From contig VFIW01000147.1 of the NCBI GenBank assembly GCA_006386115.1, forward strand, positions 27,057 to 91,056: a stretch of DNA of 64,000 bases, in the 5' to 3' direction. The DNA is from Globisporangium splendens (taxonomy: Eukaryota > Oomycota > Peronosporomycetes > Pythiales > Pythiaceae). The position numbers and the translations under genes are program-made. The notes beneath the pieces were generated by a model. The model was not told the origin of the DNA. It saw nothing but the letters and a program-made list of their open reading frames with translations, and searched no databases. Shown one piece after another: positions 1,177 to 55,653 of the stretch (the first letter of the stretch is position 1; each line of letters begins with the position of its first letter).

Positions 1177-1646
1177 TACAGCGTTGACGAGAGCAACTGT
1201 GCACACACTTTGGTGGGACAGAGCGGCAGCTTACAGTACAAAGTATAACCGCCATGCCGTGCCTGCCGATCGCTTCGCTCGCGGCGGCAATGTGGCGGAA
1301 GAAATAGATTGCACGATCTGGCTGAGCATATGCTTCATGGGTTCGCTCGAGGGGTTCTCCGGGGGGCACCCCGCACTCTTCATGCTCTGGTGCTTCTCGA
1401 CCTCCTCGTGGTGCGTTTGGCCCCTCCCTGCGAAATTCCTCGCTGTCAGGCTGGCAATATGTAGCTCTCCACCATGGCGCTACCACTGGGAGCATGGCCA
1501 CCAGGGTGTGGCTCGTGGCACGCGGCGGATTGCACGTGAAGAAGGACGCGCCGAGGAGCTTGGTTTTGATGTCCTCATTTTCGTCCATCCGTTTTGCGCA
1601 CTCGAGCAATTTCTTATTCGCGAATGATACAGTTTCACTGCAGGAC
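1177..1646. other. No recognisable gene
   Basis: Short open frames exist on both strands, but none resembles a known domain and each runs on into flanking repeats. Homology to the ABC transporters starts only at about 1647, so this stretch is not transporter sequence. It may be old transposon DNA. Confidence 0.5.
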
Positions 1647-1997
1647 TTCCCGAACGGCTTTGACACGGACGTGGGCGACCGCGGCGCGCAGGTGTCGGGC
1701 GGTCAGAAGCAGCGCATCGCCATCGCGAGAGCCATCCTGCGCGACCCGGAGGTGCTGCTGCTGGACGAAGCCACGAGTGCGCTGGACAACGAGAGCGAGC
1801 GCGTGGTGCAGGAGTCTCTGGACCGACTGCTGGCGTCCAAGCAGCGCACGACGATCATCGTGGCGCACCGGCTGTCGACGATCCGCAACGCGGACGTGAT
1901 CGCCGTGACGCAGGACGGCGCGATCGTGGAGCAGGGCACGCACGACGAGCTGATGCGCGTGCCTGGCGGGATCTACAAGTCGCTCGTGGCAGGATGA
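1647..1997 (+). pseudogene. ABCB transporter fragment, C-terminal half of NBD2
   Basis: The frame matches the last ~115 residues of the complete ABC transporters in this window. It holds the signature region (VSGGQ), the Walker B and catalytic region ([14 protein letters not shown]) and the switch histidine (VAHRLSTI). It stops two residues past KSLVA. No Walker A, membrane domain or start codon is attached, and the homology breaks off abruptly at about 1647. The ending KSLVA matches the copy at 29032-32910 rather than the two that end KALV. It is a relic without transporter function. Confidence 0.85.
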
Positions 1998-2020
1998 AAC
2001 GAGTCCTAATCTCAGTTGTT

Positions 2021-3417
2021 CAGTGCGAGCCAATTGGTTAGCCGCACTTCGACTTTTTGAACATCATTTTAACCGATCAAGCGTTGGAATTTCTAAGAGT
2101 AGTGTGCAAACCGAGTTGTTTGGACAAATAATCCTGTTCAATTCACGGCTGCTCACCGATCAAAATCAAATCAAAAAATGCAAGCCCTGTCAAACCTGAG
2201 AAAACAGTTCGCGCCAATTGGTCAGCCGCCCCAAGTCAACTGCCATTTAATTACAGATTGGAACGCTCACGTCAATTTCAAAGTGTGGAGCGGCTTCTAC
2301 ATTTAATAGGCTTTCATTTCATGCACGTCTTGTGTGCATATCTCATTGTTTCGACGAGTCATCGTGGGAAGACGCCCGCCACTCGCCGAGATCGAAACGA
2401 GGGGAGATTCGCTCCCTTTCTAGCGTGAAAACGAGCTGTAAAGGACTTACCCAACGTACTAAAAGTCTACCAAAGTTTGTTTGCAACTTCCGACGTGATG
2501 CAACCACCAATGGAACTAAGTTTAAGCCCGGAAGAGTTAACGTACAAGATGATCACGGGCGTCGCCGACTATTTGTGGAGGATGCGAGGACCAGCAGTAG
2601 CGCTAGACGGCTCTGTCTACCGCTGCAGCTCTCTGCTTCTGTCCCAACAACGCAGAGGCAGCTGCAGAACATCGATTTTTTCAGTACGATAAGTTTAACT
2701 AAACACACAAACTAATCCCTGAGTGCAAAAAGTTCAAAGAGTATAGGCGAAAGAAATGTAACGAAAACGAACTGTGTGAAGCTAGTTATTTTCTTGAATG
2801 AAACGAAATCCAATTCCGGATGGGTCAGACATACTACAGCGATGTAGGTCGCCATGCATACGACGAAAAACAAAGCTTCTTTGGTCGTCACAGCAGGTGT
2901 GGGTCTGTGATGGTATGGGGATGTTTTTGTCGATTGGATCTGGCGATTGACGTTTAGTTCGAGTGGTCGAAGTCAGATAGCTACTGCTACGTGTTAGGAG
3001 ACGATTTGTTCTCTTTAGGCAACCAATTCTACGGCTTATGTTTTTGTATTTTAGCAAGACAGGGCGTTGATCCGTCGCGTCATGAGCGAGACGGGGTGAC
3101 TGTGATGAGCCGTCGTACACTGCCCCTGGTTCAATTGATTGATGACCTATGGAGAATACTTGCGCGGGCTGGTTATAGCAGAGCACGTCAAACTGTGGAC
3201 GTGCGTGACCTGAAATTGGTCCTACATACGAATGCATACGAATAGAACAAAGGTCGAGCTTGAGTACTTCAACAAGTGCTGAAATCAATTGCAAACCGCT
3301 CCTTTCATTTTGTAGAGCACTCGGAGCGATACTCTACCCCATAGCAAGCAGGTGGAGACTGATAACCACTCTAAAACAGAGCTTTTACTTAGTGCGGCTG
3401 ACCAATTGGCGCGCACT
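2021..3417 (+). mobile_element. Decayed Tc1/mariner-type DNA transposon
   Basis: A ~28-bp inverted repeat starts CAGTGCGAGCCAATTGG at 2021 and is matched in reverse at about 3391-3417, giving an element of ~1.4 kb, a usual size for Tc1/mariner. Inside, frames broken by stops still show transposase hallmarks: FFGRHSRCGSVMVWG around 2870-2925, then DDLWRILARAGYSR and a VRDLKLVL tail around 3147-3230. The acidic triad cannot be read in one frame, so the copy is dead. A third, slightly different copy of the terminal motif at about 2208-2230 suggests a nested element. No clear TA target duplication is visible. Confidence 0.7.
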
Positions 3418-42471: not shown

Positions 42472-43961
42472 ATGGACAACGAGCACGGCGCTGCATCGAA
42501 AGCGCAAGACAAGTCAAATGCCAAGTTCAACACCTTTCTTCAAGCGCATTTGTGCAGTGTTCTGCATCTGGAGTGCATGGAGACAGAGCATACCACAAAA
42601 GATCTCATTGGAATATTCGCATCATTCTTACTGCGAGATGAGCATGCATGCTGGCAAACGTCGATGAACTACTTGAGCAGTGTTCAGCGACTACTCAAGG
42701 AGAAGACTCAAACAAGCCTATTCGTGGCCAATGAAGGGTGGTATGATCGCATGCGCTCGAATTTGAGCAAGCAGTACCTGCTCAAGTGTGTGCAAGAGGG
42801 CAAACCAGTCAAGATCCAAGCGCCGATCATGACCGTGGAGGGATATAAAAGTATTGGAAGAGCGCTGTTTATGCAAACGACCGTATTTCTCTCAAAGACA
42901 GAACGCTGATGGATCAGCAGTGGAGAGCCATAGGACGAAGCTCGGAAATTGGTGGCTTACGCTTTGTCGACTTGCAATGGATGAATTCGCATCTGCTGGT
43001 TCGAATGAATCGTATCAAGACTCGCACACAACACTCTATCTCTGCCTTTTGTTCTGCGCTCCAATGGGAAATCGATCCCTTTCACTCTCGCGCGCCGGCT
43101 AGTTGCGAATCCTTTCGATGTTTCCAGCTTGATTTTCAGTCAGACTTACAGTAGCAACAAAAACGAAGAGAAAGCGTCGGCATACATTAACAACTTACTC
43201 CGAAAACTCAAGCACAGTGAAGATAATGCCTTCGGCAAAGATTTGAAATCCCACTCAAGCCGACGTGGTTCTGCTGTCCAAGCTTTGTCAAACGCAAACG
43301 TGAGCCTCTTTGATGCGGCCCACCGAGGTCGATGGACCATGGATGACTTTACTGCGCTTCTGGGACACATCGCTGAAACGTCTGCCTCCGATCAGAAAGT
43401 TGCTTGGGTCTTGGTAGGGTGGGATGAACCAAGTCGTTCTGTGCATCCTCCTCAGTTGAGCTGCTCCGTCGATTGCCTAGAGACTGCGCGCCTCAAACGC
43501 GAATTTGCGTCTGCACTCTTCATCCATTATCATGGCCGTCTACAGCCAGTTGAGTTCATACGCGTGTTAGCAGCATCACTGCTCCTCAACTACAAAACAG
43601 CGCACCAGGTCGCCCCAAATCGCTCGGCTCACAAAGCGTTGTCGCCTGGTGTCAAGCAATGTTGTCCAATCTTTGAAGAACACGAAGCACATCAAATGCT
43701 GTCGAAGTGGAGTGTCACGACGCGAGAGGCATTCGTCGTCGACCATATCCTTGCACTTCCGGTATCTCAGGTTGCGGCGAATCTGCCCGAGGATGAGGCG
43801 GCCAAGCATTGCGTCGGCGTTCAAAGCTTTCAATCTTCCATGCCGAAGCCAGTGGTCGGAATGCGCACGATTGCAAAAGATGACCCGAGTCTGCGCACGT
43901 CTATACAAGGAACCAAGGATACACAAAACGAGATCAAGCCCATACAGACAGCTATTCTTGA
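42472..43961 (+). pseudogene. Crypton-type tyrosine recombinase, decayed
   Basis: Three successive frames encode one protein. An N-terminal helical region starts at ATG 42472 (to about 42900). A second frame from about 42909 carries GRSSEIGGLRFVDLQW (candidate catalytic Arg) and RMNRIKT (candidate Lys). A third from about 43150 carries SHSSRRGSAVQAL (His-x-x-Arg pattern) and HRGRWTMDDF. Where Crypton relatives have the nucleophilic Tyr before the final V..L.GW motif, this copy reads LLGHIAE, with His. Two frameshifts and the missing Tyr mean it is inactive. Its 3' end is cut at 43962 by an LTR fragment. Cryptons move by recombination without transposase-type nicking. Assignment is from motifs only. 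Confidence 0.65.
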
Positions 43962-44087
43962 TTTAACGGGGCTTCCCGCCACACTCCCTCACGTGCGTAC
44001 ACTAAGTACGCACGACCCTCCTTCTCAAGTGCACGGTGCGTACTTCAGCTAAGTCCGCACCGCAGGTGGGTGCTAATCCCTCTTCTG
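43962..44087 (+). repeat. 5' fragment of a family C LTR
   Basis: It matches the first ~125 bp of the LTR at 54424-54913 (read there on the minus strand), starting at TTTAACGGGG, a one-base variant of TGTAACGGGG. It ends where another LTR begins at 44088. Confidence 0.7.
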
Positions 44088-44251
44088 TGTAATGGGCTAA
44101 GGCTGCCATTACAAGCAAGGTGGCTGTAATGGACTAAGGCTGCCATTACATGCAAGGTGGCTCTTTGTGTGCGTCACACACCACCTTGTGGAAGTGCATT
44201 GTGGGTGCGAAGATATTAGGTGAAGCACATAAAAGTGATCCCCACATGCAC
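44088..44251 (+). repeat. 5' fragment of a family D LTR with a tandem 37-bp hairpin unit
   Basis: It begins TGTAATGGGC and resembles the segment at 53478-53637 on the minus strand. A 37-bp unit containing the inverted pair TGTAATGG / CCATTACA occurs twice in tandem (44088-44124 and 44125-44161). It is truncated at 44252 by the family B LTR. Confidence 0.6.
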
Positions 44252-44417
44252 TGTCACGTGTGCCTGACCTCGCACGCCAGGCACGCGCGTAGGATCGGCA
44301 TGTGCCTGACTTCGCACGTGTCTAGCGTGCGGAGCGTCGTGGCATGTGTAACGTGTGCCTGACCTCGAGTCCGAGGTCAGGCTCTCATTCATATGTAACA
44401 CTAATATATACAGTTAT
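44252..44417 (+). repeat. Family B LTR, left part (interrupted)
   Basis: It starts TGTCACG and matches the minus-strand copy at 393-831. The complete chromovirus interrupts it at 44418; the LTR resumes after the duplicated GTTAT at 51979-51983. With the insert removed it would be ~440 bp, the same length as the other copy. Confidence 0.75.
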
Positions 44418-44804
44418 TGTAATGGGGCCTCCCATTACATGGGTTCCCGGGTCAGGAGAGTGTGGGTTTTCTCCCACATGGGTTTTACCACCTCTTCCGA
44501 ACCCACCCACGTAGTACAGTTGGAGACACATTAATATGTGTCACTCATGAACACTGTACGTAGCCATTTGCATATTAGCCAATAAGACTAAGCCGTTAAG
44601 ATTTAATCCCATTGGATGATAGTCGGACTGGACATACGATTATCTACCAATGAGAGACACCGTAGGTTTCAGTCACTACGATTGCATGTGAGCACTTTAA
44701 CGTTTTAATTCACTTCTCAATTTGCACGGTAACGCGCAAAGCTCCCTTCCTTTCACCTGCGCTTCCTCAACGCACGTGTACGTCGTGTAACGAGTCCCGT
44801 TACA
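44418..44804 (+). repeat. 5' LTR of the complete chromovirus
   Basis: 387 bp from TGTAATGGGG to CCCGTTACA. The first 22 bases form a hairpin (TGTAATGGG against CCCATTACA). The partner LTR is at 51591-51978. Confidence 0.92.
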
Positions 44805-44806
44805 CC

Positions 44807-44822
44807 TGGTAGCACTTTGTGG
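44807..44822 (+). other. Primer-binding site
   Basis: TGGTAGCACTTTGTGG starts two bases after the 5' LTR, as expected for a site complementary to the 3' end of a tRNA primer. TGGTA resembles the initiator-Met primer site used in many LTR elements, but the tRNA cannot be confirmed here. Confidence 0.75.
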
Positions 44823-44854
44823 TCCGTCCAACCACAGAGCGGGAGCCGTCAGTA

Positions 44855-45904
44855 ATGAGTACTGACGAAGAACCGATGATGAATCTCGAACCCGCGGAAA
44901 CCGCGAGTGCGACGATCAACCGGGAGGATTACCTCCACTTGAGTGATCTCGAGTGGAGTGCCTTCCAACGGATGAGGACGATCATCGGCGAAAAGGCCGT
45001 GTTCGCCATCCTTGCCACCCTGTCGCAGGATCAACATCGCCTCACAGCGATCGGGTTCCTGCAGAAGGAGGTAGAAGACCGTGGAAGTGAAGCAACCCGC
45101 GCAGCTCCTGCGCAGGTACAGTTCCCACGACAAAAGTCTGTGAGGCTTGAAGTCGCGAAGTATGGCGGAGGAGACAATGAGCCTCTCCTCCGATGGTTCG
45201 TCGAAATCGATGCCGCCATTCGCTCCGGGCAAATCTACGATCCGGAGCAACAGGTCGATTTCGCGATGTCCAAGCTCGCTGGGAGAGCCAAGAGCTGGGC
45301 ATTTGGTCGCCGAATGGCCGACCATGGTTGTTTCTCCACACTTTCGGAGTTTAAAGGCGACATCCGTGCCGCCTTTGAGCCACCAAAATCGGAATTTCGT
45401 ACTCGCACGGAATTTCTCGAAATCCGACAGGATAAACGCGATCTCCACGCGTATATCCAGCATGCCCGATACTTGGTATCAAGTATCGTGTCTGAGCCAA
45501 TCGGCATGGCGACGCAAGTCGCCACGTTTATGAAAGGTTTGGTGGATGGTCCCGTCAAGACCTACCTGTTCCGGGAATACCCGGAAACGCTAGAGCAAGC
45601 AATCGCTCTGGCGCTTCAGGAAGACTTTAGCGCGAAGCAAGCACGGCTTCACGCGTTCCCCTACCGTGCCGCGCAGTTCCGGCACGCGAGACCTCCTCCA
45701 CGTTACAGTGGATCCGAACCAATGGATCTCTCATTGGTACAAACCTCGGCGGTTCGAAAGAAAACCGTCGACAAGCGCAAGCTGCGGTGCCACCGCTGCC
45801 AGAAACTGGGGCATTTTCAATACGAGTGCCGAGCGGCGCAGCCCGCTCCCCGCGTCCGAGACACACATCGGACGACTTCTTCGCGTCCAACGCGCGAAGA
45901 ATAA
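44855..45904 (+). CDS. gag: Chromovirus gag
   Basis: About 349 residues from the first ATG; the frame is open slightly upstream without ATG. The capsid-type region includes AGRAKSWAFGRRM, FEPPKSEFRTRTEFL and MKGLVDGPVKTYLFREYP. A zinc knuckle (CHRCQKLGHFQYEC, CX2CX4HX4C) near the C-terminus would bind the element's RNA. The protein forms the virus-like particle. The pol frame overlaps its end by ~117 bp in the -1 frame, suggesting -1 frameshift expression. AAAAAAC lies just past the gag stop, so it cannot serve gag ribosomes directly. Confidence 0.9.
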   Translation: MSTDEEPMMNLEPAETASATINREDYLHLSDLEWSAFQRMRTIIGEKAVFAILATLSQDQHRLTAIGFLQKEVEDRGSEATRAAPAQVQFPRQKSVRLEVAKYGGGDNEPLLRWFVEIDAAIRSGQIYDPEQQVDFAMSKLAGRAKSWAFGRRMADHGCFSTLSEFKGDIRAAFEPPKSEFRTRTEFLEIRQDKRDLHAYIQHARYLVSSIVSEPIGMATQVATFMKGLVDGPVKTYLFREYPETLEQAIALALQEDFSAKQARLHAFPYRAAQFRHARPPPRYSGSEPMDLSLVQTSAVRKKTVDKRKLRCHRCQKLGHFQYECRAAQPAPRVRDTHRTTSSRPTREE

Positions 45905-48900
45905 AAAAACGTCAACCACCAGTAGACGCGGGGCGCTCTACTGGCGAATATGCGTCTGGTGTGATCGTGGTGCACGAGGCGCAAGCCCCCAGCGTGCATG
46001 ACACGCGCTGCTGGACTACCGCGACTACGGAGGAGCCGAGAGATCGGCTCATCCAACTTGAGATAACCGTAGAGGGATTTACGACCCCTCTGCGGGCACT
46101 GCTAGACACGGGTGCGTCAAACAGCTTTGTTCGATCGCATGTCGCCCGTGCACTAGCGAGAGTAATTTCGGAGGAATCACGTTCCTCCGAGTCGAAGATC
46201 ACCGTGCGGTTGGCAACAGGTGCCACGGTCACGACGGAGAAACACGTGACACGACTCCGTGTCACGCATGATGGACGCCAAATGGAAGGAGACTTCATTT
46301 GGCTGGATTTAGATGACAAGCTCGATGTCATCCTTGGAATGCCATGGCTGAAGAAGTATCAGCCGATCATCGATTGGAATCGACAATCGATCAGTTACCC
46401 CGCTATGAAGCGGAAGCAGGCTAACCGCCCGTCGGCGCGCAACGCGCTGCCGGTTAACGAACATGATGCAAGGGTGTGCGATGGCCCCCTTAGCACGATG
46501 CTCGATGGAGAAGCCGCCCGAAAGTCTAAAGGGCAGACTTCGGTTGCTCATCGCTCTGTACAGAAGAGCGATGACGAAGGAAAGGTACCGCCAATGGAGA
46601 CCTCTGATCAAGGCTCCTCGTGCGAAGTCATGAGTGTCTTGGTCACTGATGAGGATGGATCTCATATTCATGAGATGGCGTTAGAAGACCCTCCGAAGGA
46701 CGCTTCGGAAGTGGTAACGCTACCCGTCATGAGCCAGAAACGGTTCATGAAAGAGCTGCATCGAGGCACCCTCGAGCAGATATGTTACATTGCTCCTCAG
46801 GAATCGAGCAATGCCGAGTCGGCAGTGCAGAGGCACCCACTCGATGAATGTTTCCTTGCGTCGTCATCAGTGATGGACACTGATGTGCTCGACGAGCCAA
46901 CGAAGAAGGAACGATTTCAGGCTCAGGGATGGGAATCCCTGAAGGACAGTCCATTCTACGGACTATTGAAGGAGTACGAAGACGTATTCCCAGAAGAAGT
47001 TCCCAGTCATCTTCCGACAGACAAAGGAGTTCGGCATGAGATTGATCTCAAGTTGGGAACAAAGTACTGCGTCACGAGGCAATGGCCACTGCCTCGAGAG
47101 CAAGTCAAGGTGATCGACGAGTTCTTTGAAGCTCGTCGTAAAGCAGGCCAAGTGCGCGAGTCGAATTCTCCGCACTGCAGCCCCACCTTCTGTGTGAAAA
47201 AGGCCACAGGAGGTTGGAGGATCGTGCATGCGTTCAGCAAGTTGAATGCGGCAACAATCCCGACGCAAACGCCGATACCTCGCAAAGATGTCATCATTGA
47301 CAGCATGCAAGGTAGTACTATCTTTAGTACGATCGATTTGAGAGATGGGTTCTATCAAATCTTGATGCGTGAGAAGGACATCCCTTTCACAGCAGTCAGC
47401 ACCCCGAGTGGGATGCTGTGGGAGTGGCTTGTAATGCCACAGGGGCCAACAAATGCTCCCGCCACGTTCAATAGATGCGTCACGCAACTATTACGTCCAG
47501 TGCGAGACTTCGCACCAAGCTATTTTGACGACGTGTTCATACACAGTCGTGCATCGGATGCTGCATCCGATGTGGAAATGCACAAAGAGCACCTCCGACA
47601 GCTATTGGACTTGAGCGGAAGTACAAGCTGTACGCCAACATACAAAAGTGTATGTTTGGTGTTCATGAGATCCCCGTTCTCGGTTGCTTTGTCGGCAAGA
47701 ACGGAGTGCGTCCTGATCCCGAAAAGATCAAGGCGATCAACGACTGGCCAGTTCCAACAAGCCAAAAGGATCTTCGCAAGTTCCTCGGTCTTGCGACGTA
47801 TCACCATAAGTACTCGCAGAACTATGCGGGTATCATCCGACCTCTTTCATCATTACTGAAGAAAGACGTCGACTGGAAGTGGTCCGACGAATGTCAAGAT
47901 GCATTCGTCAAGGTGAAAAGCAGTCTCATGGAGGCTCCGGTTCTCGCGATCGCCGATCACGAGCGACCATTCTATGTGGTCTGTGATGCATCCGACTTTG
48001 CAATCGGATGCGCGCTCATGCAGCGCGACGATGCAGATCAAGAACGCGTGATCTGCTATCAGTCGCGTCAGCTGAAGCCAGCTGAGCGCAATTATCCGGT
48101 TCATGACAAGGAGTTGCTTGCCATGAAGTACGCTCTTACGAAGTTAAGAGTGTATTTGCTCGGAAGTAAACGGTTCACCGTTTACACTGACCACGCTTCG
48201 CTGCGCACCGCAGTGAAGTCGCCACATCTGTCGCAAAGAATGGCCCGATGGCTTTCTTTCTTTGCAGAGTACGAGTTTGACGTCGAGTACAAACCCGGAT
48301 GGTTCAACGTGATCGCGGATGCGTTATCACGTCACCCAGACTTTGAGTCGAAAGCAAACGACTCAAAGGAAGACCGTGTGATGGCAATCACACGGGAAAG
48401 CACGCCGACATCGTCGCTCCTCGACGATATCAAAAGAGCGTGTGCGACAGATAGCGACATCAGTCGACTTGTTGCCCACTTGTCATACCCGTCTGATAAG
48501 TCGCTCAAGGCGTTGGATCCGGCTCAACGCGCTCGTCTACATCGTTACAAGATGCGCAACGATGTTCTCTACTACCGTATAGATGACAGCGGCGTACCGC
48601 GCACTGTCGTTCCAAACGATAGTGACCTTCGCAATCGTGTGCTCTTCGAGTACCACGATGCGCCTTTCCGCGGCCATCCAGGACGCGAGAAAACGTATCT
48701 CGCGCTTTCCCGCGACTTCTATTGGTCACACCAATACAAGTGGGTCCGCAAATACGTACGCGCATGCGAGGTTTGCCAGCGCGTCAAACCAGCACCGGTG
48801 ACCAACGCACCGCTGCGATCTCTGCCAGTCCCGACGGACTGTTGGAAGTCAGTCTCGATGGATTTCATCTTCGGTCTTCCTGCTGACTCCAGCAAGAAGA

Positions 48901-50255
48901 CTGGCATCCTCGTCATCGTGGATCGCTTCAGTAAGATGGTCCATCTCAGTGCTGTCCCTGCTAGCGTCACCGCAAAGCAGACGGCGCAGATATTCCTCGA
49001 TTCTGTGTTTAGGTTACACGGAATGCCCACTGAAATCGTGTCGGACCGAGATCCACGATTCACAGCTGCCTTCTGGCAAGAGTTGTTCCGACTCTTGGGC
49101 ACTCAGCTCAAGATGTCGACAGCTGATCATCCGCAGGCAGATGGTCAGACCGAGCGTGTAAATCGCACGCTCGAGGATATTCTGCGCAGCTATGCGCATT
49201 CATTCACTCACTGGAATGAATGTCTCCCTCTCGCAGAGTTTGCAATCAACAACTCTGTGCATGTCTCAACCGGGCACACGCTATTCTACGTGAACGCCCT
49301 CAGGCACCCACGTGTTCCGTCCATCCTCGGTGGGATGTCCCCTCCGTCGGTGACATCTCCCTTGAGTGGGGGAGGAGTCCGCGAAGCAGCTGCTTCGGAA
49401 CAAGCGAAGAGCGCGGAGATCTCGCACCATCATGGGCAGGCAACTGCTCATGCGGCGATCGTCGACAAAGACATCGTTACAACAGTGTCGCAGCGGCAAG
49501 CTGTCATCCGCTTCGTCCGCGATTCAATCGCCGACGCAGTGGATGGTCAGAAAGAACAAGCGGACAAGAGTGGCCGCAAAAACACGAACGAGTTTCGACG
49601 AAATTCGTTTGTTTTATTATCGACTGCTAACCTACCTAACAGAGTGGTGAGCAGTGACAGCAACAAGTTGCTGCCAAGATACATTGGCCCTTTCAAGGTC
49701 CCTGAAAGGATTGGGGACGCATACACGTTGGAGCTTCCTCCGACCATGCGTCTACACCCGACGTTCTACGTCGGGCGTCTCAAAGCGTATCATCGCCACG
49801 ATGACTCGTTGGTCTCTTCCTCTTCAGGAGACCGTGGTCGCGAAGGATCCCAAGCACAAGCTTGTGATCAGCCTCGAGCCTCGAAAGTCGTCCCTCGAGC
49901 CGCTCGTGCTTCGCGATCATCTCGCTTAGCTCGGCCCGAAGTCGGAGAACCTCGTTCTCCCGCTCAGCGTACTTCAGCCGATCAAAAAGACGCTGATCAC
50001 TCTGAGGATGCGCCTCAGAGTCACGAGCAGATCTTCCCTCCTCCAGCTCCTCCGTTGCGAGACTCCGAGGGGAACCAACGCTGGATCGTGGAGAAGATAC
50101 TTGCTCATCGCGATCGATCGTCGCGAGCGAAGAAGGAGCGCGTCTATCGCGTTCGTTGGCTTGGTTACCCGCCAGATCGAGATACCTGGGAACCGGCCGC
50201 GATGCTCCAAGCCGATGTTCCTGGCTTGGTGCAGCAGTACGAGAGTCGATGCTAA
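45787..50255 (+). pseudogene. pol: Chromovirus pol, one frameshift
   Basis: The first frame (to about 47615) has protease LLDTGASNSF and most of the RT, including TPIPRKD and the active site YFDDV. A one-base shift near 47617 moves to the frame that holds the RT thumb, RNase H (VCDASDFAIG, NYPVHDKELLA), integrase zinc finger (H..H..CEVCQ), a DDE core (MDFIFGLP, VSDRDPRF, DGQTERVNR), a GPF motif and a chromodomain near the end (YRVRWLGYPPDRDTWEP). All catalytic residues are visible, so only the frameshift blocks a full polyprotein. The last 476 bp overlap the antisense frame. Confidence 0.92.
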
Positions 50256-51390
50256 TCGACTCTCGCTTCCACAACTCGCGGATTCGATCTTGCAATCCGC
50301 GAGGAAGCATCACGCCGTTGTAACCACGAAGGTGCTCCTCAGCCAACTGAGGATCATCGCTGGTGCAGATGCGGCAACCCCTCGGTGTGGTCTTGACTCC
50401 ACACGGAACCCCAAGATCCACGCATTCCTCGTGGATCGCCAACAACTTTCCAACGGCATTGTGCCGAAGGAACTTATCCCGATTATCTCGCAATCGAGAG
50501 ATACACTTCGCAGCGTCTTCGTTGAAATTCACAACGAAGGCACCCCACGCTTGCGAAAGGAACAGCGCTTGTTTCTCAGCGCTGTGAGACTTCTTTGACT
50601 TCGATCTACCATCAAAGTACCGCATCGAATGGAAAAGGTCGATGTAAAACTCCTCGCGCGCCTTGGGATGGAAGTTCTGTCGAAGGACGAAGTCATCATC
50701 CTTGATGGTACTAACATCGTACAGCGCGTGAGTGCCCGCACGCTGGGTGCCACGATGTGCACGAACCCAATTGGGTTTGGGCGCCCATAAGTGACTCCAG
50801 CTAGAAGGGGCGAAATCCATCCCTTCAGAAGGACCCGTCACCGGATCCTTCTCCTCCGCCGGAAAGGCAAGATGGCGTGGCAACTTGCTATTTCCCGATG
50901 ACGCAGTAACCTGCGCATCAGATTCGGATTCCACATCGAAGAGCAAGTCCTCGAGTGGATCGACAGCTTCCAGTTCATAATTGGACGCGTCCAGCGAGAG
51001 AAGGATATTTCTCGCTGCATTCACCAGGTCGGGATCAGCTGACGCTAATCCTTCCCGACCGAGATTTTCCATCATGTTGGCAGATGCCGCGCTTCCCGAC
51101 GCTCCGACGTCGGAAATGGCAACCGCCACGATGGATCCGCTCGTTTCTCCGTGAGGAGATCCCTCCTCACGACGCTTCTTCCGCGTAGGCTCATTCAAGA
51201 GGGCCGCGGACGACGAACGATTCGCTTCGTTTCGTTTGAGATTCGAACGGTCAACGGAAGAAGACTCGGCTTCTTCCTCCCGATCGTCACGCACGACATT
51301 CGTCGTGGTGCTACTCATTGGAGTGTTGCAAGGAGTCACCTCCTTGCTACTCGACTCGTAGTCAACAGCATCACTGTCGATCGAAGACAT
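49780..51390 (-). CDS. Long antisense ORF inside the chromovirus, unknown function
   Basis: 536 codons from the first ATG (51390) to the stop at 49780, opposite to gag-pol. About 1.1 kb lies beyond the pol stop, where the sense strand has no comparable frame. The rest runs under the integrase tail and chromodomain. The N-terminus is acidic and Ser-rich and holds a basic nuclear-signal-like cluster (RKKRREE). The middle has a mixed charged/aromatic region with CGVKTTPRGCRIC. The C-terminus has Leu-rich heptads (about residues 470-525) that look like a coiled coil, then a basic tail. I recognise no family. Antisense ORFs at this place are known in some plant gypsy elements. Whether this one is expressed is unknown. 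Confidence 0.6.
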   Translation of the reverse strand: MSSIDSDAVDYESSSKEVTPCNTPMSSTTTNVVRDDREEEAESSSVDRSNLKRNEANRSSSAALLNEPTRKKRREEGSPHGETSGSIVAVAISDVGASGSAASANMMENLGREGLASADPDLVNAARNILLSLDASNYELEAVDPLEDLLFDVESESDAQVTASSGNSKLPRHLAFPAEEKDPVTGPSEGMDFAPSSWSHLWAPKPNWVRAHRGTQRAGTHALYDVSTIKDDDFVLRQNFHPKAREEFYIDLFHSMRYFDGRSKSKKSHSAEKQALFLSQAWGAFVVNFNEDAAKCISRLRDNRDKFLRHNAVGKLLAIHEECVDLGVPCGVKTTPRGCRICTSDDPQLAEEHLRGYNGVMLPRGLQDRIRELWKRESISIDSRTAAPSQEHRLGASRPVPRYLDLAGNQANERDRRAPSSLATIDRDEQVSSPRSSVGSPRSLATEELEEGRSARDSEAHPQSDQRLFDRLKYAERENEVLRLRAELSEMIAKHERLEGRLSRLEADHKLVLGILRDHGLLKRKRPTSHRGDDTL

Positions 51391-51575
51391 TTGTACGAGG
51401 TTCACCTCGCACAGCTTGCGGTGTCTGGAAAGCTCTCTGTTGGGCACGGCGCACACTGAGAACTGAGCCCGCAAGACTCAGTGCTCTGCCTTCTGTGACC
51501 AGTTCCTCCGAACACCAAAGAACACAGAAGAACACAAGATGGATTGGTCGCGCGCGTTTCTACGTGACCAATCGC

Positions 51576-51590
51576 TTTACGGGGGGATGA
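51576..51590 (+). other. Polypurine tract
   Basis: The stretch around ACGGGGGGATGA immediately before the 3' LTR is the expected plus-strand primer. Confidence 0.65.
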
Positions 51591-51978
51591 TGTAATGGGG
51601 CCTCCCATTACATGGGTTCCCGGGTCAGGAGAGTGTGGGTATTCTCCCACATGGGTTTTACCACCTCTTCCGAACCCACCCACGTCGTACAGTTGGAGAC
51701 ACATTAATATGTGTCACTCATGAACACTGTACGTAGCCATTTGCATATTAGCCAATAAGACTAAGCCGTTAAGATTTGATCCCATTGGATGATAGTCGGA
51801 CTGGACATCCGATTATCTACCAATGAGAGACACCGTAGGTTTCAGTCACTACGATTGCATGTTAGCACTTTAACGATTTCAATTCACTTCTCAATTTGCA
51901 CGGTAACACGCAAAGCTCCCTTCCTTTCACCTGCGCTTCCTCAACGCACGTGTACGCCGTGTAACGAGTCCCGTTACA
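51591..51978 (+). repeat. 3' LTR of the complete chromovirus
   Basis: 388 bp, the same ends as the 5' LTR, with about eight substitutions and a one-base insertion relative to it. GTTAT follows directly. Confidence 0.92.
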
Positions 51979-52257
51979 GTTATATGGAACTAGTCAGATA
52001 AAAATACAGGTGCAGGCAGGACACCTGGATAGGAAGAAAAGTCGAATCAGTTGAAGGAAAGGATAGGCATGCATGCAGGGAGGCTTAGACGTAGCGCTAG
52101 CGAACTAAGTCCTCCATTCAATTCACTTTCCAATTTGCCATCAAGTTGCCACCTCCTCCTCCGATCCACTCCACCGTTCTCCGACTTTCGACCAATCAAG
52201 TTCCGACTTTCCAACTTTCGACCAATCAGATCTCAAGAAGACCTCCGACTCGTTACA
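51979..52257 (+). repeat. Family B LTR, right part (interrupted)
   Basis: It continues the LTR begun at 44252, from the duplicated GTTAT to CGTTACA. Nearly the same sequence lies at 898-1176. Confidence 0.75.
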
Positions 52258-53115: not shown

Positions 53116-53477
53116 AAAATGGTTATGGTTCCTGTCGCTACTTGCTAATGAACCCCAAGGGATCCTACAGCTTTTATAACTAAAACCTAAATATACCAAT
53201 AAAACCTATGAAGTATGATAATATAAAACCTTGGGTACACTGATGTTGAACCTACGGGATCTTCTAGAAGCTTGAACTTCAAGTCTTATTTAAAATCCCT
53301 GCAAAGTGATTGGCTCGCGCCACTCACTTCAGGTGGCAGAGACACGCCGGTCTCGTCGCCGGTGCAGTTTCCCAAGCAGGAACCATCACTCAGTACTTGA
53401 TTAGTACATGGATGTCATCGCTCAGTACTGATTAGTATATGAGAACAACATTCTGCACTGATCAGCACAGAGAACAC
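53116..53477. other. AT-rich stretch, nothing recognised
   Basis: No coding frame of note. The sequence has short AAAACCTA-type repeats and may be LTR or 3' UTR remains. Confidence 0.4.
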
Positions 53478-53637
53478 TCGTGACGTCATCGAATGACGTC
53501 ACACGTGCATGTGGGGACTGTATTACCGTAATCCCTTTGTTGTTTGTGTCTCCACAACGCACACTGAAGGTGGTGTGTGACACACTAGATCTGGGGACAG
53601 ATCCACCTTCATGTAATGGCTGGTTGTGGCCCATTAC
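53478..53637 (-). repeat. Family D LTR end interrupting a gag relic
   Basis: On the minus strand it starts TGTAATGGGCC at 53637 with the partner CCATTACA and matches the fragment at 44088-44251, both continuing to CCCCACATGCAC. It begins exactly where gag homology on the minus strand stops. The lower boundary is uncertain. Confidence 0.55.
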
Positions 53638-54387
53638 AGCTTCCTCGAGCGTCTTGGGATGGTCCCGAAACAAATAAGTCTTGATCGGACCATCGTTCAA
53701 GCCTTTCATGTACACGGCTGTCTGTGTGCCCATGTCGATAGGTTCCTCCACGGCATTGGACACCAGATAGCGTGCCCTCTGAGAGTAAGCATGGATGTCA
53801 TGCTTGCCCTGACACAGATTGAGAAACTCAGCTCTCGATCTGAACTCGTTCTTGGGTGGCTCAAACGTGAGCTTGAGCTCGGATTTGAACTCCTCGTAGG
53901 ACGTGAACGCAGACGGATCATGCAGTCTGCGTCCATACGCCCACGTCTTCGCCCGCCCCGCAAGGTAGCTCATGGCGAAGGAAACCTTCAGACCCTCGTC
54001 AGTGATCTGACGAGCGTTTGACAGCAGCGTCGAGCTCGACGAGCCATCGGAGAAGCGGTTCCCCTTCTCCGCCTCTGTACGGAGACACATTGAGTTTTAA
54101 AACTCAACGCGTGGAGACTTGGCAGCAACAGGTGACTGTTGCTGACCGCGTTCTTGCAGCATAAAGCGCAGAGCAGCTGCTCTGTGCTCTTCCAGGGAGA
54201 GCGTGCGCAGCATGGACGCTACGACGCTCTCGCCGACAACCTCTGCCATTCGCCCCAGAGCGTCCCATTCGATGGCGCTCAGGTGTGGGCAGTCTTCTCT
54301 GGTTACGCGACCGCCATCGAACTCCATGGTGGTCGATGGCGGACTCTCTGTCGAGAACCGAGGGAGCGTGCCTGCTTCAGTAGACAA
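53638..54387 (-). pseudogene. Gypsy gag relic (family C element)
   Basis: The minus-strand frame resembles the complete chromovirus gag (LAGRAKTWAYGRRL, FEPPKNEFRSRAEFL, MKGLNDGPIKTYLFRDHP). An in-frame TAA at 54097 divides it and it ends abruptly at the family D LTR at 53637. The N-terminal part (VTREDCPHLSAIEWDALGRM) also parallels that gag. No pol is attached. It lies just inside the family C LTR, so this is the 5' end of a minus-strand element. Confidence 0.85.
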
Positions 54388-54423
54388 GGGATGGCCGTGG
54401 GAAGGACTACAAGTGCTACCAGG

Positions 54424-54913
54424 TGTAACGGGTCAACCGTTACACTGGCGTACACGTGTGCGTCCGTGAGGAAGCGCGCAGTTAGGTGTCACACCTAACT
54501 GGGTTTGTATAGGACTTAGTATAGGACCAGAGAAAGCTGGTCCCAATACTGTAGCGATCGTTCTAGTATGAGGAAAGAATGAGAGTGTTTTTATTTTGTG
54601 TGATTATGTCGAGCGGTCTGGCTAGACCGCGAGTAAAACCTAAAACCTTATGCAAAACCATGATTGTTGGTTGAGAGAATTCCTACTGATTTACTGATAC
54701 CTGATTGGTCCAAATCCTGCCTACTTCTGTATTATTATCCAATGACATACAAGACCTATCATACGGAATGTTGAGGGTTCTTGATGACAGAAGAGGGGTT
54801 AGCACCCACCTGCGGTGTGGACTTCAGCTAAGTCCGCACCGTGCACTTGAGAAGGAGGGTCGTGCGTACTTGGTGTACGCACGTGAGGGCGTGTGGCGGG
54901 AAGCCCCGTTACA
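54424..54913 (-). repeat. Family C LTR
   Basis: 490 bp, reading TGTAACGGGG to CGTTACA on the minus strand, with a TGGTAGCACTT primer-binding site next to it at about 54411-54421. It belongs to the gag relic. Its first ~125 bp recur at 43962-44087. Confidence 0.8.
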
Positions 54914-55653
54914 TCGATGACCTCCATCGTCGCTGCGGTTAATAATCTTGGTGAGAAATCGCACGAGCCTGTGAGGTATTCATGGCCATTCCATCCATTC
55001 CTCCCTTGTACTGCTGCAAAGACACCATTATGAAGGGATACTGGTCCATCGCATCTGAACGTCAGTATTCTTATTGCTGCAAACGACATGCCTTTTGAGC
55101 CAATTCCGAACGCCGCCGGTGATCATGTCGGAACAGCGTTGTCAGCAGTAGCAGATAATTGGTGATGGGAGTTGGCTCGATGGTAGATGCAAGCTCGAAG
55201 TTGTCGTTTCGTAATATTTGGCGCACTAGGAAATGTTGCAGCGATTACCCATCGACTGATTCGTTCAATTCACCTTCGTCACTCAGATGACGACTACCTT
55301 CCAGGGTAAGCAGAAAAATACCATATGACATGCGTATCGAATGTTAATCCACCAATGTCAAGCCCTTCTTTCACTCGTGCGTCCAGATCTTCCATAGCGA
55401 TGTCTTCCATCATCTCCGTACAACGACCGCTCGGCTCCGTAGCAATTATGAGCATGACATCACTGCGGCACACTTTAACTGCTCATGACCATTCATTTAT
55501 GTCACTAGGCAATCAGGGTACCATCATCCAGCAGCTAGGTCTCATTCACATTGTCGACTCCGCTTCAGAATCAGCACATTGACTATCTAATAGCTCGGAA
55601 TTCTCGACTCGCTCCCTCTTCGTTGCGCCCGCTCATCCTCCGTGTTCTCAGAG
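54914..55653. other. No clear gene; possible 5' part of the following retroelement
   Basis: Only short frames occur. It sits between the family C LTR and the first ORF of the decayed element, so it may include that element's leader or terminal repeat. Confidence 0.4.

Follow-up and report, generated by a model that had tools for sequence, protein, structure and literature searches.

Codon-level constraint points to an antisense gene between pol and the 3' LTR of a chromodomain Ty3/gypsy family in Globisporangium splendens

The window, a 64,000-nt stretch of Globisporangium splendens DNA, contains a chromodomain Ty3/gypsy retrotransposon that carries a long antisense open reading frame, hereafter aORF (Table 1). 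The two LTRs of the element are 387 and 388 bp long and show 8 mismatches per 387 compared bases, and pol of this copy consists of two overlapping frames, i.e., it is frameshifted; diverged LTRs and a frameshifted pol had already been noted in a first-pass annotation of the locus. Pfam analysis identified a C-terminal chromodomain in pol. The label "chromovirus" given in that annotation thus holds in the sense of a Ty3/gypsy element with a chromodomain, and in that sense only. The RT_RNaseH models of Pfam covered a single region of pol, and no second, archaeal-type RNase H was found with them. In the available text of PMC5348765, the oomycete Ty3/gypsy element Chronos is described with a chromodomain at the end of pol and a second, archaeal-type RNase H; the chromodomain is common to both elements, whereas the second RNase H is a feature of Chronos only. 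The window element recurs at locus L009 (contig C33:18400-27700), which is probably a duplicated or haplotype contig; its protein frames are identical there, and so is the target duplication.

Table 1. Positions of the element, its reading frames and the features of the aORF in the window
Feature	Positions	Strand	Basis and remarks
Target-site duplication GTTAT	44413..44417 (5' side) and 51979-51983 (other copy)	.	sequence read
5' LTR, TGTAATGG...CCGTTACA	44418..44804	+	LTR comparison
gag frame: Retrotrans_gag, zinc knuckle	44813..45904	+	ORF list, Pfam
pol part one: protease, RT	45631..47859	+	ORF list, Pfam; frameshifted relative to part two
pol part two: RNase H, integrase, SH3-like, linker, chromodomain	47529..50255	+	ORF list, Pfam
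AATAAA, 161 nt past the aORF stop	49613..49618	-	sequence read
aORF, 536 aa plus stop	49780..51390	-	ORF list, copy comparison
Predicted C-terminal coiled coil of aORF, residues 462-518	49837..50007	-	AlphaFold helix, ω; opposite pol linker
pol chromodomain PF00385, residues 852-907 of 908	50082..50249	+	Pfam; ω of both strands in text
aORF core domain, residues 225-378, common to stand-alone genes	50257..50718	-	alignment
Putative zinc site H320, C323, C330, C339, C342	50365..50433	-	copy alignment
Basic cluster RKKRR, aORF residues 70-74	51169..51183	-	sequence only
Inverted CCAAT repeat between aORF start and 3' LTR	51542..51573	.	alignment; mostly kept in both subfamilies
Purine-rich, polypurine-tract-like stretch adjoining 3' LTR	51580..51590	+	by eye
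3' LTR	51591..51978	+	LTR comparison

The aORF runs antisense to gag-pol in the interval between pol and the 3' LTR, and overlaps the end of pol. Its minus-strand frame is open over 49780-51477 (565 codons), with the first ATG at 51390 and the stop codon at 49780-49782. Codons 379-536 (158 codons) are opposite the pol end, and codons 1-378 lie past the pol stop (378/536 codons, 70.5%). These figures bear out the 536-codon frame (minus strand, 51390-49783) that had been proposed opposite pol, as well as its location, for two thirds of its length, outside long sense frames. The N-terminal half of the protein is acidic and of low complexity, and contains a basic cluster that had been described as nuclear-signal-like and is present in the sequence. 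AlphaFold analysis with 7 sequences predicted a single region well, namely a helix at residues 462-518 (10-residue block means 64-83, against a whole-protein mean pLDDT of 36), which agrees with the C-terminal coiled coil suggested earlier. Among the residues of the putative zinc site, H320, C323, C330 and C339 are kept in 30/30 copies and C342 in 29/30. Searches of Pfam, NCBIfam, PHROGs and PDB gave no relative of the aORF pointing to a function; in Pfam no family matched at E up to 1, hence Transposase_28 is absent.

We then asked whether such a frame could be a chance opening opposite GC-rich pol and in non-coding sequence. In a set of 2000 order-1 Markov sequences, with 49780-51590 as training sequence, no open run was longer than 357 codons, compared with 565 observed. 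On the other hand, order-2 sequences, which already carry the trinucleotides of the aORF itself, reached 569 codons, and when only the stretch outside pol was considered, order-1 sequences reached 441 codons, more than the 407 observed. Four further antisense frames of 337-391 aa, largely opposite longer frames, are present in the 64-kb window. The length of the aORF is therefore suggestive but not decisive by itself. Survival of the frame in one copy with a damaged pol, from which real coding had been argued in the first-pass annotation, is likewise weak evidence when taken alone, because a neutral frame could persist at 8/387 LTR differences. The decisive evidence for coding is selection across copies.

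We searched the genome with the integrase, scoring 121 matches out of 919 candidates; 39 of the 121 had at least 85% identity. In 38 of these 39, a match to the aORF was found within 1.5 kb on the opposite strand, the sole exception being a partial match on contig C127. The aORF is thus a trait of the family and not of one copy. Eight of the remaining 82 integrase matches were examined, and none of the eight had a match to the aORF query. A search with the aORF protein gave 81 scored matches in the genome, 27 of which span residue 1 or 2 to 535 or 536; internal stops were absent from 20 of these 27. The frame was open over at least 565 codons in 19/21 rows of a copy alignment (two rows being identical), whereas a pol of 1541 codons was present in 3/21, a comparison that carries no evidential weight because the copies were picked by aORF score. 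Three protein-database searches returned 13, 17 and 12 matches, all named as G. splendens apart from ENA entry P0016; these searches begin with a word-based first look that misses distant relatives and did not return the stand-alone genes described below.

To analyze selection, we aligned 30 copies (the window and L010-L038; L009 was dropped as identical), of which L022, L025, L028, L029, L036, L037 and L038 are partial at one end. Outside the pol overlap, variants common to at least two copies comprised 103 silent, 123 replacement and 0 stop changes (226 in total), whereas singletons comprised 76, 189 and 7 (272 in total); the neutral expectation with transitions weighted was 0.284/0.686/0.030. 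The silent excess of shared over singleton variants was significant (one-sided Fisher p 3.3e-5). Singletons, largely changes of individual dead copies, thus behave neutrally, and shared variants have been filtered. In young copies alone the contrast was weak (shared, 16 silent and 27 replacement; singletons, 45 silent, 90 replacement and 1 stop), and the signal therefore stems mainly from differences between subfamilies. Consistently, ω of the aORF outside the overlap was 0.457 (IQ-TREE MG+F3X4; 2ΔlnL against ω of 1, 97). When stop columns were dropped, ω was 0.468, compared with 1.058, 0.924, 0.977 and 0.963 in four control frames. The only low control was the mirror frame, whose third positions face those of the aORF (ω 0.534); it has a stop in some copy at 26/377 codons. 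The dN/dS comparison outside the overlap, which had been proposed as a check, thus sets the aORF apart from four controls at 0.92-1.06. These results indicate, at the level of codon substitution, that the aORF is a gene kept as a protein by purifying selection. Real coding, which we regard as nearly certain (about 0.97), is supported by the copy comparison and ω rather than by the survival argument. A chance frame can practically be dismissed, given 0 stops among the 226 shared variants as opposed to 7 among the 272 singletons, together with the homologous antisense ORFs in other element families described below.

Constraint is unevenly distributed along the protein. A significant silent excess of shared variants over singletons was detected in residues 186-300, 301-378 and 461-536, and none in residues 1-110, 111-185 and 379-460. 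As judged from these intervals, the constrained parts of the aORF are the core domain and the predicted C-terminal coiled coil.

In the overlap, the third position of each frame faces the second position of the other, and selection on pol and on the aORF is therefore separable. Opposite the chromodomain (50082-50249), ω was 0.248 for pol (2ΔlnL 44.6) and 0.976 for the aORF (0.01). In the coiled-coil stretch (49837-50010), which is opposite the pol linker, the relation was reversed: ω was 0.243 for the aORF (2ΔlnL 54.9) and 1.275 for pol (1.26). The coiled coil is thus conserved to a degree comparable to other proteins of the element (0.243 versus 0.248 for the chromodomain). Over the whole linker (49794-50081), ω was 0.340 for the aORF and 0.762 for pol (2ΔlnL 3.06), so that pol is not fully free there. 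For the whole overlap, values were 0.516 (aORF) and 0.550 (pol) with stop columns dropped, and a separate run gave 0.651 for the aORF; over this full length, constraint on the aORF is only moderate. Two shared variants opposite the aORF in the chromodomain part of the pol frame are stops, and some shared variants therefore stem from dead copies. Judging from these ω values, within the overlap the constrained domain of each strand faces the linker of the other. The overlap offers a clean natural example of two antisense-overlapping proteins that split one stretch of DNA domain by domain.

We investigated whether related elements have the same layout. Antisense ORFs were found in 4/4 fetched loci with 60-64% identical integrase, starting beyond the pol stop and running back opposite the pol end. 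In family B, which has 104 scored matches out of 653 candidates in the genome, they encode 398 aa (L039), 444 aa (L040) and 397 aa (L042); in family C (L041), 466 aa are followed by one in-frame stop and a further 127 aa. Besides these four loci, L050 (family D) shows the same antisense layout, with 214 + 357 aa and one in-frame stop. By our reading of the coordinates, a helix-like C-terminal tail lies opposite the pol linker in each of these loci. In family B, where dN/dS (Nei-Gojobori) covers the aORF frame only, L040 compared with L039/L042 gave 0.41/0.39 outside the overlap, values that are approximate given a dS of about 1.16, 2.17/2.05 where the aORF faces the chromodomain (residues 204-284), and 0.33/0.28 for the coiled coil. 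Similarly, L039 compared with L042 gave 0.33, 1.62 and 0.13, respectively. The domain-by-domain split is thus seen on both strands in the window family (family A) and, in family B, on the antisense strand. The protein of L041 is 34% identical to the window aORF over 230 aligned positions (E 2e-30), whereas the L040 protein gave a weak match (E 0.004-0.008). Family B was rejected as a homologue of the core: it contains a look-alike by eye (FYKELF...SW.TFV), with profile E values of 0.034 to 21 where listed and best shuffles of 0.7-3.2. We claim that family B resembles the window family in position and architecture only. Taken together, these comparisons show that other, related element families in this genome have the antisense layout too.

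The core, which spans about residues 225-378, has the pattern [FY]Y.[DN][LI][FY]...W..F......G...H......C.V......C..C, followed by a coiled-coil-like tail. Across families H320 (8/9), C330, C339 and C342 (8/9) recur and C323 does not; the core of family D (L050) lacks the His and the last Cys of the pattern. Genome searches revealed further core-bearing frames, 29-38% identical to the L041 protein in one search. These are stand-alone genes of 625 aa (L043, with a near-identical stretch in L044), 553 aa (L046), 584 aa (L047), 465 aa (L045, where a same-strand frame resembling alcohol dehydrogenase ends about 110 bp upstream), 308 aa (L048) and 391 aa (L049). One more gene occupies the end of L027, at a distance of about 1 kb past the 3' LTR of a copy of family A. 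A profile built from these seven genes, none of which belongs to such an element, was run with a database size of 17350 and found the window aORF with E 1.2e-19, family C with 2.9e-26 and family D with 4.5e-20, compared with 1.6 for the best of 2000 shuffles. tblastn with gag/pol queries of families A, B and D gave no match in L043-L049 or the last 1.6 kb of L027; other mobile-element frames nearby are an RNase H frame in L048 and LINE-like frames in L043 and L049. Pairwise dN/dS among L043, L046 and L047 was 0.24-0.46. An unrooted tree built from 11 cores set the antisense ORFs of families A, C and D apart from the rest with 95% support. Pfam gave no match for the core, and the best PDB match had E 0.3; with four core proteins each, PHROGs gave none and NCBIfam at best E 0.091. 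Viral relatives were also considered and set aside, as 0 of 110 pattern matches in viral contigs were confirmed.

Several frames adjoin the core genes. L046:3530-4252 (-) and L048:713-1492 (-) look capsid-like and RING-like by eye, with no match in Pfam, NCBIfam or viral contigs, and L047:516-1190 (+) and 1272-2027 (+) gave weak phage-integrase (E 8.8e-06, below the cut-off) and weak methyltransferase matches.

Since the core is also found in genes outside elements that are themselves constrained, the aORF could be a passenger, a host or other gene whose constraint predates capture. All compared copies, however, adjoin pol of the window element family, and the shared variants therefore arose inside the element; moreover, where the two frames overlap, constraint on the aORF interlocks with that on pol. 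We regard a passenger as highly improbable. Even less credence is due to derivation of the aORF from ORF1 of a LINE, an idea raised by L043, where the core gene is just 5' of a LINE-like endonuclease frame (PF03372), and by a 99% identical stretch on contig C117 with the same core-LINE junction. A DNA search over the junction revealed 38 places besides C125 and C117, all starting at one internal base, and the L051 copy has a single open frame across that base, with upstream DNA giving 40 matches, itself included. The LINE beside L043 is therefore a 5'-truncated insertion, and the ORF1 idea is refuted for this LINE family; the core gene is not found as ORF1 upstream of ORF2 across LINE copies. 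This LINE-like family (L051 1-2100; L043 2-1983 (-)) has a high copy number, with 73 endonuclease matches, and its N-terminal part is in one frame with the endonuclease.

According to the available text of a review (PMC7264820) and of a 2025 study of Retand (PMC11963269), no sequences similar to antisense accessory genes are known outside elements. The function and origin of such genes of retrotransposons are not established, and core relatives outside these elements make the question of origin testable. A speculative scenario, which we consider doubtful, is that the antisense gene represents a protein family, not described before, whose members passed between the genome of the oomycete and its retroelements. 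The common ancestor of several chromodomain Ty3/gypsy lineages would have captured a stand-alone gene once, in antisense (or genes of elements would have been domesticated), and the two versions would now contact each other via their coiled coils, one regulating transposition and the other counter-regulating it.

We then focused on signals for expression. A sense Inr-FPR-like element at 44710..44723 (+) in the 5' LTR and 51884-51897 in the 3' LTR exactly matches what we take to be the oomycete consensus. Allowing at most one mismatch to this presumed consensus, 11 matches were found in the window compared with 2.82 expected. An antisense Inr-like site at 51467 is present in 8 of the 13 alignment rows listed and missing from 5, which constitute the second subfamily, and was set aside as an antisense promoter for this reason. 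The inverted CCAAT repeat is a candidate antisense promoter element. The aORF start has ACAA before the ATG, with A at position -3. One protein-database cluster of 23 annotated proteins represents the aORF, and G. splendens gene models were built with transcriptome hints (PMC7163027), which together hint at expression of the aORF. The conserved CCAAT repeat could drive antisense transcription, and antisense RNAs of such elements may act through dsRNA (PMC7264820), so that the RNA might matter through dsRNA or small-RNA control of the element, with the open frame incidental. We consider this very unlikely: the constraint is specific to the amino-acid frame and repeated in family B, and the RNA as sole function is refuted by ω of 0.457 versus controls near 1. 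The RNA may have an additional role.

Antisense ORFs between pol and the 3' LTR have been described in the plant elements Grande, RIRE2, Retand and PvRetro13 and in fungal Boty (PMC7264820), and the arrangement is therefore not as unusual as the first-pass annotation had supposed. A literature search of titles and abstract starts of openly accessible papers found no report of an antisense retrotransposon gene in oomycetes; the G. splendens case extends the arrangement from plants and fungi to this group. As far as the available texts describe them, the plant ORFs share with the aORF position, orientation, presence in most family copies and a proposed nuclear role (PMC7264820, PMC11963269). By contrast, the aORF differs from them in its domain-by-domain overlap with pol and its relatives outside elements. 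Retand belongs to a non-chromovirus lineage according to the available text of PMC11963269, whereas the G. splendens element has a chromodomain, and TRP28 of Retand has Transposase_28, which the aORF lacks, with no sequence relation between the two. Boty, an LTR element of Botrytis cinerea, likewise has an antisense extra ORF, brtn, in the available accounts (PMC7264820; Zhao 2011, cited in PMC8365987). Its host is also a filamentous plant pathogen, but a fungus, and the likeness noted here is one of arrangement. Extra ORFs of bdelloid rotifer elements resemble the aORF core in that one protein type is found in otherwise unrelated genetic units, but they are GDSL and DEDDy proteins called ORF3 in the available text (PMC5408684), whereas the aORF is antisense and its relatives are genes outside elements.

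Taking these observations together, we propose that this chromodomain Ty3/gypsy family carries the aORF as a genuine accessory gene, antisense to pol, with its own antisense mRNA and a regulatory or integration-complex role; we give this statement as a whole a probability of roughly 0.55. A separate antisense mRNA would start from the 200-bp leader or the 3' LTR. Basic clusters and a coiled coil are among the aORF features; the product would enter the nucleus and oligomerize through its C-terminal helix, and its H-C-C-C cluster may bind zinc. HBZ of HTLV-1 is encoded by an antisense gene towards the 3' LTR and has an acidic N-terminus, a basic cluster and a C-terminal coiled coil. The aORF has the same antisense site and the same three features, but no visible bZIP basic region; host and element differ as well, and no homology is claimed. 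By analogy with GENE23, TRP28 and HBZ, the product would most likely be a regulator of element expression or a helper of the integration complex. Its target may be transcription of the element or the integration complex; in the available texts, similar proposals are made for GENE23 (Grande) and TRP28 (Retand) (PMC7264820, PMC11963269). Whether the role is nuclear and regulatory rather than another accessory one is, in our estimate, evenly balanced. In particular, the protein could assist in structure or replication (assembly of particles or RNPs, or transport of the integration complex), with a coiled coil that oligomerizes and a Cys-His core that binds nucleic acid. The coiled coil is the most constrained part, the Cys-His cluster is conserved, and roles in nuclear transport have been raised for such ORFs (PMC7264820). 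However, the protein has no sequence likeness to capsid or zinc-knuckle families, and its own strand and presumed own promoter would uncouple its dosage from gag-pol, which would fit regulation better; we consider a structural role unlikely, though well worth keeping in view. For the proposed accessory gene, high-copy oomycete families such as family B offer a setting in which antisense expression is measurable directly.

The surroundings of the element have features of their own. A 129-nt inverted repeat with 91% complementarity (43960-44088 and 54787-54915) flanks it, with arms 10.7 kb apart. Beside one arm, a plus-strand frame at 43009-44052 looks tyrosine-recombinase-like by eye, with no Pfam match. 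On the minus strand, 53422-54432 is part of gag from a different, oppositely oriented Ty3/gypsy element that adjoins the window element (Retrotrans_gag E 8e-13).
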